From Bradyrhizobium sp. AZCC 2262 (lineage in GTDB: Bacteria > Pseudomonadota > Alphaproteobacteria > Rhizobiales > Xanthobacteraceae): 64,000 nucleotides of DNA. Where the stretch lies: the NCBI RefSeq assembly GCF_036924535.1, contig NZ_JAZHRT010000001.1, positions 6,882,001 to 6,946,000 on the forward strand, given 5' to 3'. A program made the translations under genes and the position numbers. Below the pieces are notes generated by a model, which made no database searches, was not told the DNA's origin, and worked only from the letters and a program-made list of their open reading frames with translations. Of the stretch, positions 11,620 through 31,501 are shown piece after piece (the first letter of the stretch is position 1; every line of letters starts with the position of its first letter).

Positions 11620-11657
11620 CAGCATGACCTCCGCATCAGCCAAGCCTAGAGCCTTTT

Positions 11658-11753
11658 CCGTTCCGATGTAATCGGAACGGGGCTCTGGATTCTTGATTTG
11701 ACGCGTTTTCTTGACGCGAACCGGTCCCCACTTCGCTTGAAAACGCTCTAGGC
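11658..11753. repeat. Bradyrhizobium palindromic repeat element (double hairpin)
   Basis: The first hairpin has 10-bp arms CCGTTCCGAT/ATCGGAACGG around GTA (11658-11680). The second pairs GCGTTTTC (11703-11710) with GAAAACGC (11739-11746) around an ACCGGTCCCCACTTCGC core. I recognise this as a very common interspersed element of Bradyrhizobium and Rhodopseudomonas. It lies directly upstream of the cNMP-binding gene and artificially lengthens its open frame. Confidence 0.7.
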
Positions 11754-26757: not shown

Positions 26758-28695
26758 ATGTCATTGACGATGGCCCAAAGAATGAAGCGCCTCGGGATGC
26801 CGATTGCGGCGCTGTTCGGCGTGGCCGTGTTCGCCCTGATTGGAACCTCCTGGTTCCTCAACCGCGACGCGCTGCGCGAGGCGGTCGAGGCGCAGATCCG
26901 CGATGTCACCGGGCTCGACCTGGTGGTGTCAGGCGCGATCGACGTTTCGGTGTTTCCGGGCAGCTACGTCTCCTTTCACAATGTCGGGCTGAAGGGCGGC
27001 GGCACCACCGACCCCGCGCTGCAGGTCGATGTGCTGACCGCCAACCTGCGCTTGCTGCCATTGCTGCTGCGCCGCTTTGAAATCGCCGACGTCATGATGC
27101 TGCGGCCGCATATCCGCGTCATCAGGGACGCCGGCGGCGAGAGCAACTGGACGCCGTTCGTCGAACGGATCGCGCGCACGATGAGGCCCGGCGCCGAAAA
27201 CCAGGTGTCGTTTTCCGAAATCAGAATCCAGGACGGCGTGCTCAAATATGAAGACGCCACCAACCACGTCACCGAGCAGCTCGGCGATATCGATCTGTCG
27301 CTGGCCTGGCCGTCGATCTCGCGCTCGTTCGCGGCGACCGGGCAATTCGACTGGCGCGGAGAGCGCGTCGACGGCTCGATCTCGGCGAGCGACTTCGTCG
27401 CGATGCTGTCGGGCGAGCGCTCGGGCCTGAAGGCGCGCCTCGTGAGCGCGCCGCTGAAACTGGCCTTCGACGGCTCGGTCGCCAACCGCACCAGCCTGAT
27501 GATGGAAGGCACTGTGACCGTCGACAGCCTGTCGCTGCGCAACGCGCTGCGCTGGATGGGACAGCAGGTGCCCGGCAGCGGCGGGTTCGGCCGCTTCGCG
27601 CTGAAGGCCCGCGCCAATGTCGTCGGCGCCTCGGTCGCGCTGACCAATGTGAATGTCGAACTCGACGGTAACGTCGCCGAGGGCGTGATGACGGTAGCTA
27701 ATAACGGCCGCCAGACGCTGCAGGCGACGCTTGCCGCAGGCAATCTCGACTTCACGCCGTACATCTCCACCGTCCGCCTGCTGGCCAGCGGCGCGCGCGA
27801 CTGGAACCGGCAACTCTTCGACCTCACCTCACTGTCCGCCACCGATCTCGACATGCGCCTGTCGGCGGCGAGGGTGACGGTCGGCCCCACAAAACTCGGC
27901 CGCACCGCGTTTGGCGCCAACCTGCGCGGCGGCGCGCTGGCGTTATCGATCGGCGAAGCGCAGATGTATGGCGGCATCGCCAAGGGCTCGTTCGGGATCG
28001 CGCGTTCGGACGCGATCGCCGACGTCAAGGCGCAATTCCAGTTCACTGATGTCGACCTGCAGGCCTGCGCCAGCGAATTGTTCGGGATCACAAAACTGAC
28101 CGGCCGCGGCAATCTCGGGGTTTCGCTGATGGCCTCCGGCTCGAGCCCGTTCGGGCTCGCTTCCTCGCTTGACGGCACGGCGACCATGATCGGCCATGAC
28201 GGCGCGATCGCGGGCTTCAATGTCGAACAACTTTTGAAGCGGCTGGAGCGACGGCCCTTGTCCGGTGGCGGCAATTTGCGCTCAGGTTCGACGCCCTACG
28301 ACAATCTCACGGTCTCGGTGCGCTTCAACGACGGCATCGCCACCGTCGAGGACGTCCGCGTCGACGGACCGACGACGCGCCTGACCCTGACAGGCACGGC
28401 TTCCGTGCCAGCCCGCGAATACGACCTCAAGGGCGTCGCCAGCCTGACGCCCGCGGCCAACGGCGGCGACAAGGGATTTGAGCTGCCGTTCGTGGTGCAG
28501 GGCCCGTGGGACGATCCGCTGGTATTCCCCGATCCCGAAAGCCTGATCCGCCGCTCGCCCGGCGCGGCGCCCTTGCTCGATGCCGTGAAGGACCGCAAGA
28601 CGCGCGATGCGGTGCGCTCGGTGATCGAGCGGTTTACCGGCGGCGGGCAAAAGCCGGCGGTGCCGGAGGCGGCGGACGGAGCGAAGGCGAACTGA
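26758..28695 (+). CDS. AsmA-family envelope protein
   Basis: The 645-residue protein has one N-terminal membrane helix (about 13-34) and a long periplasmic part with AsmA features: an N-terminal region rich in V-S-G-x-I-D-V-S strands (LDLVVSGAIDVSVFPGSYVSF) and a C-terminal AsmA_2-like region (GRGNLGVSLMASGSSPFGLASSLDGTATM). AsmA-type proteins span the periplasm and help move phospholipids to the outer membrane. ATG 26758 is used; ATG 26770 is possible. A repeat element follows within 10 bases of the stop. Confidence 0.88.
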   Translation: MSLTMAQRMKRLGMPIAALFGVAVFALIGTSWFLNRDALREAVEAQIRDVTGLDLVVSGAIDVSVFPGSYVSFHNVGLKGGGTTDPALQVDVLTANLRLLPLLLRRFEIADVMMLRPHIRVIRDAGGESNWTPFVERIARTMRPGAENQVSFSEIRIQDGVLKYEDATNHVTEQLGDIDLSLAWPSISRSFAATGQFDWRGERVDGSISASDFVAMLSGERSGLKARLVSAPLKLAFDGSVANRTSLMMEGTVTVDSLSLRNALRWMGQQVPGSGGFGRFALKARANVVGASVALTNVNVELDGNVAEGVMTVANNGRQTLQATLAAGNLDFTPYISTVRLLASGARDWNRQLFDLTSLSATDLDMRLSAARVTVGPTKLGRTAFGANLRGGALALSIGEAQMYGGIAKGSFGIARSDAIADVKAQFQFTDVDLQACASELFGITKLTGRGNLGVSLMASGSSPFGLASSLDGTATMIGHDGAIAGFNVEQLLKRLERRPLSGGGNLRSGSTPYDNLTVSVRFNDGIATVEDVRVDGPTTRLTLTGTASVPAREYDLKGVASLTPAANGGDKGFELPFVVQGPWDDPLVFPDPESLIRRSPGAAPLLDAVKDRKTRDAVRSVIERFTGGGQKPAVPEAADGAKAN

Positions 28696-28704
28696 TCTGG
28701 CCGC

Positions 28705-28777
28705 GTAGCCCGGATGAGCGAGAGCGACATCCGGGTCTTCGCTTGATCCCGCATATCGCTGCGCTCATGCGGGCTAC
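28705..28777. repeat. GTAGCCCGGATGAGCG repeat element, copy 1
   Basis: It starts GTAGCCCGGATGAGCG and ends CATGCGGGCTAC, with an internal GACATCCGGGTCTTCGC segment, and so has complementary ends (GTAGCCCG/CGGGCTAC). A longer copy lies at 43989-44123 and a fragment at 29651-29666. This is a well-known kind of Bradyrhizobium interspersed repeat. It forms the end of the small minus-strand gene at 28774. Confidence 0.8.
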
Positions 28778-29004
28778 TTGCCGCTGGCTCGTTGGATATG
28801 GCGGGTTGTCCGCGTTATGGTCGTACCATCTGAGCGGTGCTGACATCGCTGGCCCCTGTTGATGAAGTCTTCCAGCTCCGCCCGCTTGCGCGAGAGCAAA
28901 AGCTGCGCCCGCGCGTTGTTCAGGCCGGATTGATCGAGTTGGCGCGCAAGCTGGTCCAGCTCGCCAATCCGCCGGCGCAGGGCCTGGATCGTCTCATCGC
29001 TCAC
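28774..29004 (-). CDS. small helical hypothetical protein, second gene of a LexA-box unit
   Basis: The 76-residue frame starts at GTG 29004 and overlaps the end of the preceding gene by 11 bases. Its first ~50 residues are one long helix with heptad-like spacing (SDETIQALRRRIGELDQLAR, then RAQLLLSRKRAELEDFINR). The last ~25 residues look like a tail added by the adjoining repeat element, because the stop lies inside the repeat. The family is not recognised. Because of the overlap and shared direction it should be expressed with the LexA-box gene upstream. Confidence 0.55.
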   Translation of the reverse strand: MSDETIQALRRRIGELDQLARQLDQSGLNNARAQLLLSRKRAELEDFINRGQRCQHRSDGTTITRTTRHIQRASGK

Positions 29005-29329
29005 GGCGGCCCCGAGCCTTTTCCGTTCCGACGGAGACGCGAGCCAGTCTCCATCCCGGATCTGGCGCCGCGTTCGAGGGCCTCCGGCTCGCGGCACGCA
29101 CATCCAGCTTCAGTCGCTCGTCGACATTGAGCAGCCGCTCCTCGCCGCCGAGCCGGTTCCGCTCGCCAATGAGGCCGAGCATGGCGACCCGCATCGCCAT
29201 CAGATGCATCGCGGCCTCCGAGCAGTCCTCGGCCCGGTTGACCTGTTTGCGGATATTATCCTCCGCGCCCAGCATCTCCGCCCGTAAGAATTTGATTTTC
29301 CTTCTAATTTCATTGAGTTTGTTGTCCAT
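28994..29329 (-). CDS. small coiled-coil hypothetical protein behind a LexA box
   Basis: The 111-residue protein begins MDNKLNEIRRKIKFLRAEML and is helical and charged to about residue 75 (ending VDERLKLD); a basic, low-complexity tail of about 35 residues follows. There is no signal peptide, membrane helix or known motif. ATG 29329 has GAGGT at a good distance. The promoter 25-54 bases upstream contains a perfect alphaproteobacterial SOS box in its spacer, so DNA-damage induction is inferred. Small SOS-induced proteins in alphaproteobacteria (SidA, DidA in Caulobacter) block division, but nothing here shows the same function. Confidence 0.65.
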   Translation of the reverse strand: MDNKLNEIRRKIKFLRAEMLGAEDNIRKQVNRAEDCSEAAMHLMAMRVAMLGLIGERNRLGGEERLLNVDERLKLDVRAASRRPSNAAPDPGWRLARVSVGTEKARGRRER

Positions 29330-29353
29330 GGGGCACCTCGCTGCGGTTGAACC

Positions 29354-29383
29354 CTATAAGAACAAATAAAGAACAAATTTCAA
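29354..29383 (-). promoter_or_regulatory. LexA/SOS-box promoter
   Basis: On the minus strand a -35 box TTGAAA (29383-29378) and a -10 box TTATAG (29359-29354) are 18 bases apart. The spacer holds GTTC-N7-GTTC (29374-29360; GAACAAATAAAGAAC on the plus strand), the exact form of the alphaproteobacterial LexA site. Predicted transcription starts about 17 bases before ATG 29329. The site could also repress leftward-opposed transcription towards the DUF3072 gene. Confidence 0.72.
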
Positions 29384-29429
29384 GTTAAGAGTCCACGGCG
29401 AAGCAAAGATTCTTTTAGGAGTTCCCGTT

Positions 29430-29465
29430 TGCCCCGCCTCCCCGACCAGATGGACGCCCCGATGA
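29430..29465 (+). CDS. possible 11-codon leader peptide coupled to the DUF3072 gene
   Basis: A TTG start at 29430 has AGGAG at 29418-29422, seven bases upstream. It encodes MPRLPDQMDAR and stops at TGA 29463-29465, overlapping the ATG of the next gene (ATGA at 29462-29465). The downstream gene has no good ribosome-binding site of its own, so translational coupling through this leader is plausible. Confidence 0.4.
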   Translation, partial: CPASPTRWTPR

Positions 29466-29608
29466 CGCCCCGCCAACTGGCGACGCTCCGCACGCTCAGC
29501 GCCGAGGCGTACCAGCCAAAACTGTTCGAGAAGAACCTGACGGCGAGGGAAGCCGAGCGGCGGATTACGGCGCTGAAGGCGGAGATCGAGCTGGCGAACT
29601 CTTTCTGA
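29462..29608 (+). CDS. DUF3072-type mini-protein
   Basis: The 48-residue protein reads MTPRQLATLRTLSAEAYQPK, then FEKNLTAREAERRITALKAE. This is the DUF3072 pattern: an MTxxQ start, a central L-T-x-x-E-A turn, then a RIxxL helix. The function of the family is unknown to me. It is divergent from the LexA-box genes with 132 bases between starts, so it may share their damage control. Confidence 0.6.
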   Translation: MTPRQLATLRTLSAEAYQPKLFEKNLTAREAERRITALKAEIELANSF

Positions 29609-29875
29609 GGGGCGGCCTACACGTATTCGTCCTGGAACAAGAAATCTCGTGGCTCATGCGGGCTACTTGCCGGGCTACGGCAACGAAGCCGAACTGACGC
29701 TTTCGTCTTGCGGACGCGCTTGCAGACCGAACGATGTCGATCTCGCCGCGCTCACACACCCGCCGACAAATTTCGACCAGCCGTGGAGAACACGGAAGTA
29801 GCCGGCCATCGGCGCTCGACGGGCTGCGATCAGGTTGTTAAGCCCGCCTCCGCCAAGGAGACTTTGAGTCGAGAC
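29609..29875. other. intergenic stretch with a fragment of the GTAGCCC repeat
   Basis: No convincing gene is present. GGCTCATGCGGGCTAC at 29651-29666 is the right end of the repeat seen at 28705-28777 and 43989-44123, so this spot received or lost a repeat copy. The upstream part of the ATPase open frame (from 29708) runs through here but lacks a start signal. Confidence 0.5.
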
Positions 29876-31387
29876 ATGACCGTTGCGATCGAGATGGGAC
29901 ACACGACGGCAGGTGCTCCGGCTACTCTGGACCTTGAGGAACTGCTTGCGACCCGCCTGCTGGTGCAGGGCAATTCGGGCTCCGGCAAATCCCATCTGCT
30001 GCGCCGGCTGCTGGAACAGAGTGCTCCCTGGGTGCAGCAGACCATCATCGACCCCGAAGGCGACTTCGTGGCGCTTGCCGACCGTTTCGGCCACCTCCTG
30101 ATCGATGCCGAGGATCATACCGAGCGGGGCCTGCAGGTCGCCGGCGAGCGCGCGCGTATCCATCGCGTTTCCACGGTGCTCAATCTCGAGGGGCTCGACG
30201 CCGAGAACCAGATGCGGCGCGCCGCTGCCTTCCTCGGCGGGCTTTTCGACGTCGCCCGCGACCACTGGTACCCGATGCTGGTGGTGGTGGATGAGGCGCA
30301 GCTGTTCGCGCCGGCCGTCGCCGGCGAGGTTTCGGACGAGGCGCGCAAGCTCTCGCTCGGCGCCATGACGAACCTGATGTGCCGCGGCCGCAAACGCGGG
30401 CTTGCGGGGATCATCGCCACCCAGCGACTGGCGAAGCTCGCCAAGAACGTCGCCGCCGAGGCGTCCAATTTCCTCATGGGCCGAACCTTTCTGGATATCG
30501 ACATGGCGCGCGCCGCCGACCTTCTGGGCATGGAGCGGCGACAGGCAGAGGCGTTCCGGGATCTGGAGCGCGGGCAATTCATGGCGCTGGGACCCGCCCT
30601 CTCCCGCCGTCCGCTGGGGCTGCGCATCGGTCCGACGGACACCACGCCGCGCAACGCGACCCCGCGCCTGATGCCGCTGCCGGAAGCGACACCGGACGCA
30701 CGCGCCATCATCCTGGCAGCGCCGCCGCCCGAGAATAATCGGCCCCAGCGCCGGTCGCCGCCAGATCTCCTTGGCCAGCTCATGGCGGCGAAGTCAGCGG
30801 CGCTGGAGATACGTCCCGAAGCGACGGAGCAGCCGCCACTCAGCGCCGAGGAACTGGCGGAGCGGCATGAGCGCGTGGACCGTATTCTGCGCGCCGTCAT
30901 GGCGGAACCCGACGCAGGCTTCCGTGCCATCGGCGTCCTCTATCAGGAGTTCGTGGTCCGCTGCCGAATAGAGGGCCTTGGTTCGGACGTGCCCGACCTG
31001 GCTGACTTCCGCCGCATGCTGACGCGCGCCCGCGCCGGGCTCGGCTCCGATATGGCAGAGGATGACGGGTGGCAGGATGTCTCGGTCCGCGCCTCACTCC
31101 TGCCGGAGGATATGCAGGGCGTCTTCATGATGATCGCCCGCGCCGCGAAGGAAGGTTGGCCGTGCCCGGGCGATGCGGCGATTGCCCGCGCCTATGGCTC
31201 ACACTCGTTGCGCCGTGCACGGCGTCTTTTGACCTACATCGAGGAGCAGGGCCTCATCGTTTGCCAGCTTGACGGCGCCGGCCGGCGGATCGTGACGCTG
31301 GTCGAACTGGCCTGGGCGACGGCACCGGGCGACCCCAATGCCGAGGAACAGCAGGCGGAGCAAGGCTGCAGCAGCTCGGCGCCTTGA
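29876..31387 (+). CDS. HerA/FtsK-superfamily ATPase (DUF87-like), stand-alone
   Basis: The 503-residue protein has Walker A GNSGSGKS (32-39), Walker B MLVVVDEAQLF (134-143) and a sensor-like ATQRLAKLAKN, as in HerA-type DNA-pumping ATPases. From about residue 270 the sequence is proline-rich; a helical C-terminal domain (about 330-490) with a winged-helix look (AIARAYGSHSLRRARRLLTYIEEQGLI) ends the protein. HerA proteins usually work with a nuclease such as NurA, or a Sir2 partner; none is adjacent. ATG 29876 is chosen by homology to the ATPase core; AAGGAG lies 15 bases upstream, farther than ideal. It sits next to the SOS-box genes. Confidence 0.8.
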   Translation: MTVAIEMGHTTAGAPATLDLEELLATRLLVQGNSGSGKSHLLRRLLEQSAPWVQQTIIDPEGDFVALADRFGHLLIDAEDHTERGLQVAGERARIHRVSTVLNLEGLDAENQMRRAAAFLGGLFDVARDHWYPMLVVVDEAQLFAPAVAGEVSDEARKLSLGAMTNLMCRGRKRGLAGIIATQRLAKLAKNVAAEASNFLMGRTFLDIDMARAADLLGMERRQAEAFRDLERGQFMALGPALSRRPLGLRIGPTDTTPRNATPRLMPLPEATPDARAIILAAPPPENNRPQRRSPPDLLGQLMAAKSAALEIRPEATEQPPLSAEELAERHERVDRILRAVMAEPDAGFRAIGVLYQEFVVRCRIEGLGSDVPDLADFRRMLTRARAGLGSDMAEDDGWQDVSVRASLLPEDMQGVFMMIARAAKEGWPCPGDAAIARAYGSHSLRRARRLLTYIEEQGLIVCQLDGAGRRIVTLVELAWATAPGDPNAEEQQAEQGCSSSAP

Positions 31388-31441
31388 TGCGACGGCAGAG
31401 CGCGCACTCAAAAACGACCACGCATCAAGCGCGCGTTGCGC

Positions 31442-31447
31442 TATAAT
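31442..31447 (+). promoter_or_regulatory. perfect -10 hexamer upstream of the GreA-like gene
   Basis: TATAAT occurs 55 bases before the TTG start of the GreA-family gene. A clear -35 partner was not found at 16-18 bases. In GC-rich DNA this exact hexamer is uncommon, so it probably marks the promoter. Confidence 0.4.
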
Positions 31448-31501
31448 CCGCTCTCGTCGCTGACCGCCTTTGGGCTATCTCGCTTAAAAGGAGCTTTGGG
31501 C

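Follow-up and report, generated by a model that had tools for sequence, protein, structure and literature searches.

In this work we have analysed three small genes that surround one promoter region in a 64,000-nt stretch of a Bradyrhizobium genome, the whole of which is called the window here. Gene 1 (28994..29329, minus strand) consists of 111 codons and a stop and encodes a basic protein of a family that begins with MDN[KR]. Gene 2 (28774..29004, minus strand) encodes 76 amino acids from a GTG start and overlaps gene 1 by 11 nt, while a DUF3072 gene of 59 amino acids with a TTG start (29429..29608, plus strand) is divergent from gene 1. The overlap of 11 bases, which the original prediction had made from the letters of the DNA, holds when gene 2 starts at the GTG at 29004. 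Among L002-L030 there are 28 loci with gene 2, of which 25 have the same GTG and the same overlap, and gene 1 at these loci has lengths of 94, 111, 117, 128 and 136. The conservation of the overlap across such differing lengths fits translational coupling, and the coupling of the two genes seems likely. Codon alignments gave a median dN/dS of 0.20 for gene 1 (28 sequences, 94 codons), 0.44 for gene 2 (25 sequences) and 0.08 for DUF3072 (28 sequences), and because of these values we regard all three small genes as real and under purifying selection.

The putative sigma70-type promoter of gene 1 lies on the minus strand, with a -35 hexamer TTGAAA (29378..29383) inside a block that is nearly invariant in the 28 loci of group A and a -10 hexamer TTATAG (29354..29359) that varies in part across this group. 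The hexamers are exactly 18 bases apart, and the spacer contains the LexA-type operator GTTCTTTATTTGTTC (29360..29374, minus strand), which reads GAAC-AAATAAA-GAAC on the plus strand; the box had been placed in this spacer from the outset and is indeed there, coordinates included. A good ribosome-binding site and an ATG had also been expected downstream of the box, and they are found as GAGGTG at 29334..29339 on the minus strand, whose GAGG is kept in at least 95% of the 28 group-A loci, and the ATG at 29329. The description of the box itself was right for GTTCTTTATTTGTTC and overlooked a second GTTCN7GTTC site, GTTCTTATAGGGTTC (29349..29363, minus strand), which overlaps the first. The middle half-site is common to both, and the pair amounts to three GTTC half-sites 11 bp apart. 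This second site is kept in many close relatives and not in all (it is missing, for example, in L008, L012, L015, L017 and L018). In one branch the end of the box is 9 nt from the ATG of gene 1, which suggests a nearly leaderless mRNA there.

Which protein would bind such a site? In the window GTTCN7GTTC was observed four times against 2.15 expected, and since 12 of 100 shuffles reach four, this count by itself is above expectation and not significant; two of the four sites are the overlapping pair at the gene 1 promoter. The whole genome has 268 sites compared to 208 for the reversed pattern, a mild enrichment, and with an extra T (GTTCN6TGTTC) 68 sites compared to 33 for the control. As the motif is neither rare in the window nor more than mildly enriched in the genome, conservation had to decide, and because chance occurrences are as frequent as the reversed control indicates, we identify the binding protein through conservation together with the lexA and recA genes. 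For each of these two genes 40 genomes of the genus were searched, and GAACN7GAAC was present upstream of lexA in 30 of 30 and of recA in 30 of 30 Bradyrhizobium loci fetched from them. In this genome the same motif precedes the genes for ssb, Ku and a metallophosphoesterase, families which Pfam confirmed, and an imuA-like gene which was named by eye and has no Pfam match. Caulobacter LexA boxes reported in PMC12700426 and PMC9578287 have the same form, and one of them, GTTCttgttatGTTC, has a T-rich spacer (PMC12700426). The known rule that alphaproteobacterial LexA recognizes GTTC-N7-GTTC accords both with these boxes and with the sites at lexA and recA in Bradyrhizobium. Judged by this context, GTTCN7GTTC is a LexA-type operator in Bradyrhizobium, and it is highly probable that LexA binds at the module and that the module is induced by damage.

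Other genes of this genome with a box include a second small family of about 70 amino acids, DQAIAACGGD-like, with at least six copies (L045, L049, L051, L065, L066 and L071). Here a TTGAC element is followed by GAACN7GAAC at 32-34 nt from the start codon, in the orientation opposite to that of the box at gene 1. Kinship of this family with gene 1 or gene 2 was considered and rejected, since out of 60 block shuffles 13 (gene 1) and 32 (gene 2) reach the real profile score. The Ku gene and a divergent gene of about 132 amino acids have a common GTTCTCTTTATGTTC box (L048, with a Pfam-matched Ku; a similar ORF occurs in L065), and in L052 a box stands beside a 132-aa gene. This common box suggests SOS control of end joining.

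The search of other Bradyrhizobium genomes for the box at orthologues, proposed as a check on the original prediction, did not refute it. The gene-1 family is represented by 107 distinct loci, and 105 of them have a perfect GTTCN7GTTC no more than 120 bp from gene 1; the remaining two, L085 and L140, have a box with one mismatched base. These 107 loci were collapsed from 130 fetched, all of them best-scoring or hand-picked matches: 30 and 20 were chosen from a genus-wide gene-1 search and 80 were the best of 235 from a second search, which selects MDN-type starts and another protein motif and not the box; L176-L190 were left out of the count. In branches whose protein is about 40-55% identical to that of the window the flanking DNA has diverged and the box is still inside a TTGAC/TTGAA promoter. 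Its presence in nearly every distinct locus makes the box more than chance. A gene-1 relative was found in 137 of the 146 genomes of the genus, nine having no match. Across the order, 10 of 297 genomes had a match; nine belong to the same genus and one to another genus of the family, and in this last genome (G375/L292) a gene-1-like match, a DUF3072 match and the box occur together.

The two-gene unit with its divergent DUF3072 gene also proved to be a conserved arrangement, since DUF3072 is divergent from gene 1 in 77 of the 107 distinct loci and gene 2 is downstream of gene 1 in 59; gene 2 was not found in the other 48. At 17 loci of this latter kind the next gene was looked at and a different small ORF was seen in five (L077, L122, L142, L150 and L152); these five share it, and it has about 81-106 codons from the first start and paired cysteines. 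In Bradyrhizobium sp. SRL28 (L100) an open frame joins genes 1 and 2 as a single ORF of 203 codons. The HerA/DUF87-like ATPase gene (29876..31387, plus strand), which had been described as flanking the unit, is a neighbour outside the conserved module. It starts 547 nt from gene 1 here and adjoins gene 1 in one of the 107 loci, the window's own, in a count where flanks were mostly 1.5-3 kb; it was rejected as a partner of the module. The switch between the three small genes has hardly changed in relatives, and this makes their proteins very likely to be part of the DNA-damage response.

The products of genes 1 and 2 had been predicted to be small helical proteins of no known family, and in agreement with this neither was named by Pfam, NCBIfam, PHROGs or PADLOC. 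Gene 1 has no match in Pfam, NCBIfam or PHROGs, the best PHROG match of gene 2 has an E of 0.47, and none of the three small proteins had a PADLOC match at E up to 0.1. Pfam scans over family members gave weak scattered matches, the best at E 0.0003 (in three of 62 gene-1 members) and E 0.0021 (in two of 31 gene-2 members), and the most shared models were found in 8 of the 62 and 9 of the 31, with a best E of 0.017. A profile search of the PDB returned uninformative matches to a designed coiled coil (E 0.0027) and CsoR (E 0.24), and Rfam found nothing over 27000-31500 at E up to 0.1. In gene 1 the residues M1 D2 N3, R9 R10, L15 R16, D35 C36, R47 and G61 are invariant or nearly so. Both proteins are basic, with a pI of 10.7 for gene 1 and 11.3 for gene 2, and the gene-1 family has a median pI of 10.4 and a tail charge of about +5. 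The highest 19-residue hydropathy is 1.32 for gene 1 and -0.16 for gene 2, and by this measure alone neither has a clear transmembrane helix; since the family maximum of gene 1 reaches 1.56, weak membrane contact of this family is possible. Are the two proteins related to each other? Alignment of their profiles with hhalign covered 48 columns with a probability of 80% and an E of 1.4e-5, and on repetition the probability was 64% with an E of 6.7e-5 and a score of 29.3. This score tops all of 150 column shuffles (maximum 19.8) and all of 150 shuffles of seven-column blocks (maximum 24.5). The two proteins thus look like distantly related helical hairpins. It may be that they associate, although we put this forward tentatively, and an action on nucleic acid is more doubtful still. 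The predicted features favour soluble helical damage-response proteins over membrane division inhibitors.

The tail of gene 1 has a history of its own. Many relatives (L003, L007, L009-L011, L017, L019, L022, L097 and L101) have a dispersed palindromic repeat of 102-126 bp within the reading frame near the end of gene 1. Their proteins have 128 or 136 residues compared to 94 without the repeat, and the beginning of gene 2 is largely left intact. In the window the repeat was located at 29012-29074 and 11649-11731, and the former position (29012..29074, minus strand) is a decayed in-frame copy of about 51 bp. When the copy of a relative was used as the query, 41 matches were obtained in this genome. 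Repeat elements had been noted as flanking the module, which is correct, and one copy is inside the reading frame of gene 1 itself. In its behaviour the repeat resembles the Rickettsia palindromic elements.

The divergent mini-gene had been taken for a DUF3072 type, and its match to Pfam PF11272 (E 5e-8, 33.1 bits) is above the cut-off of 27.5; it is the sole DUF3072 match in this genome. The module version, at 31.6 bits, differs from typical members, which score about 90-105, and it is paired with a two-gene unit, unlike members elsewhere, although many of these likewise have a GAACN7GAAC box. In the branch to which the window belongs we saw nothing at the operator that would pass as a convincing promoter for DUF3072. 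Elsewhere in the genus the operator also falls within a plausible DUF3072 promoter, as judged by eye, so that one operator may serve both directions, and we lean towards shared control of DUF3072 by this operator. A search over 250 bp in both directions found the EcfG/RpoE2-type pattern GGAACN16-18CGTT at none of the 107 gene-1 loci; here we take the name EcfG to apply to the RpoE2-type motif GGAACN16-17cgTT.

Outside the module, DUF3072 (PF11272) has matches in 52 of 347 genomes searched in the order and in 7 of 289 in the class. A GAACN7GAAC/GTTCN7GTTC site was present within 350 bp upstream of the match in 28 of 35 such loci, and in 25 of the 35 a possible start follows 8-47 nt after the end of the site, compared to one site in 207 control windows. 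With eight plasmid loci added and a limit of 250 bp, the box was found in 33 of 43 loci (three of which, L253, L280 and L302, have no start at a suitable place beyond it, so that 25 of 35 is the stricter figure), the EcfG/RpoE2-type motif in 27 and both in 22, as against 4 and 6 of 856 control windows, these being 428 windows read in both directions so that each box counts twice. The 43 loci comprise the 30 best of the order search, five from the class search and the eight plasmid loci (L303-L310), which were hand-picked from 40 listed of 77 records, are outside the count of 25 of 35 and have the box in five cases. On one of these plasmids, from Sphingobium (L304), DUF3072 is downstream of an annotated ATP-dependent DNA ligase gene. 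Where both motifs occur, the box starts 5-11 bp past CGTT in 18 of the 22 loci, and it overlaps the -35 in three (L276, L281 and L298) and the -10 in one (L308). The EcfG pattern had been chosen after inspecting sequences, and its exact combination with the box was then found at nine places in 199 genomes that overlap the earlier samples, compared to two for the reversed pattern; eight of the nine are just upstream of DUF3072, and five of these eight come from one genus. In a divergent DUF3072 group of other genera the 350 bp next to the match contain no box at any of 11 loci (L282-L291 and L294), and the other five DUF3072 loci examined alongside had one; because of these 11 genes the box is not a universal rule for DUF3072. 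The general stress promoter motif of RpoE2 is given as GGAACN16-17cgTT in PMC6011840, and the DUF3072 loci outside the module share this type of motif in the 27 cases mentioned; there it is combined with a LexA-type box, whereas at the window's module it is absent. The composite promoter would have a -35 and -10 of EcfG/RpoE2 type, with a LexA operator covering the start site or one of these two elements, and full expression would need general stress and DNA damage together. Our literature search gave no mention of DUF3072 and no title or opening of an abstract naming the module or the EcfG/LexA composite, though an earlier listing of some of these genes among published LexA regulons is possible.

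We propose, with good though not full confidence in the explanation as a whole, that the small proteins form a LexA-controlled (SOS) module. LexA bound to GTTC-N7-GTTC in the promoter spacer would block transcription of genes 1 and 2, and after DNA damage the RecA-driven cleavage of LexA would open the promoter. The 11-nt overlap would couple the translation of the two proteins, and these basic helical hairpins may associate with each other and perhaps work together with DUF3072 in repair, with nucleic acid or the nucleoid as their target, in a way that would differ from that of membrane division inhibitors. Could the operator instead belong to another repressor with the same recognition sequence, so that the module answers a different signal? 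The spacers of the module are T-rich (such as TTTATTT and TTATTTT) and differ from those at lexA and recA in Bradyrhizobium, but the half-sites and their spacing are identical to those of lexA and recA, one gene-1 branch has the same flank GAACATATAG as lexA of this genome, and a Caulobacter LexA box reported in PMC12700426 is likewise T-rich in its spacer. We consider such a repressor improbable. A block of cell division by SOS-controlled proteins, in the manner of SidA, is hardly less improbable. The small size of the proteins and the LexA-type operator would suit it, and the DivIC model was touched by three of the 62 gene-1 members, with a best E of 0.025 that is not significant; however, SidA and DidA are described as membrane proteins (PMC4211646) and genes 1 and 2 have no clear transmembrane helix.

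Two small overlapping genes behind a probably damage-inducible promoter might also be read as an SOS-induced toxin-antitoxin pair, but gene 2 was not found in 48 of the 107 loci, Pfam, NCBIfam, PHROGs and PADLOC gave no worthwhile match, and the spread of gene 1 over 137 of the 146 genomes is not patchy. We regard such a pair as quite unlikely. Prophages frequently have small ORFs and genes under SOS control, and for this reason the genes could be thought of as a prophage remnant with a retained LexA operator. Yet viral contigs contained no relative, gene 1 matched no PHROG and gene 2 did so no better than at E 0.47, and gene 1 occurs in the same 137 of 146 genomes; a remnant is the least credible of these readings, and we rejected a prophage origin on the viral contigs.

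The module is most similar to the Alphaproteobacteria LexA regulon as described for Caulobacter (PMC9578287, PMC12700426), with which it has in common the half-sites, their spacing, the position in the promoter and the presence of the site at lexA and recA. It differs in that its target genes are outside the named repair families and are candidates for induction by damage. The likeness to SidA and DidA was part of the original prediction and did not stand up. SidA, a 29-aa inner-membrane peptide, and DidA, of 71 aa with one predicted transmembrane helix, are likewise small damage-response proteins of Caulobacter, and SidA is SOS-induced (PMC4211646). They are membrane proteins, whereas the module proteins look soluble and basic, and the induction of DidA is reported to be independent of SOS (PMC4211646). 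Because neither gene 1 nor gene 2 has a clear membrane helix (1.32 and -0.16, by hydropathy only), the comparison is unsupported.

Our analysis covered anatomy, conservation, selection and the identity of the motif with that of lexA and recA, and on this basis the sequence speaks strongly for the proposed regulation. Bacteria have many damage-inducible genes without a known function, and Bradyrhizobium gains here a conserved candidate SOS module, while DUF3072, an unnamed family, gains a testable role. The most surprising part is found outside the window, in DUF3072 promoters that combine general-stress and LexA-type signals: in this promoter design outside Bradyrhizobium the site of a general-stress sigma factor and a LexA-type site coincide at one gene. 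Perhaps, and we offer this as a conjecture that may well be wrong, DUF3072 is a general DNA-damage protein of the Alphaproteobacteria in which EcfG/RpoE2 and LexA are joined at one promoter, and Bradyrhizobium has evolved a second, sigma70-driven branch that also commands a new helical pair, probably duplicated from one ancestor.
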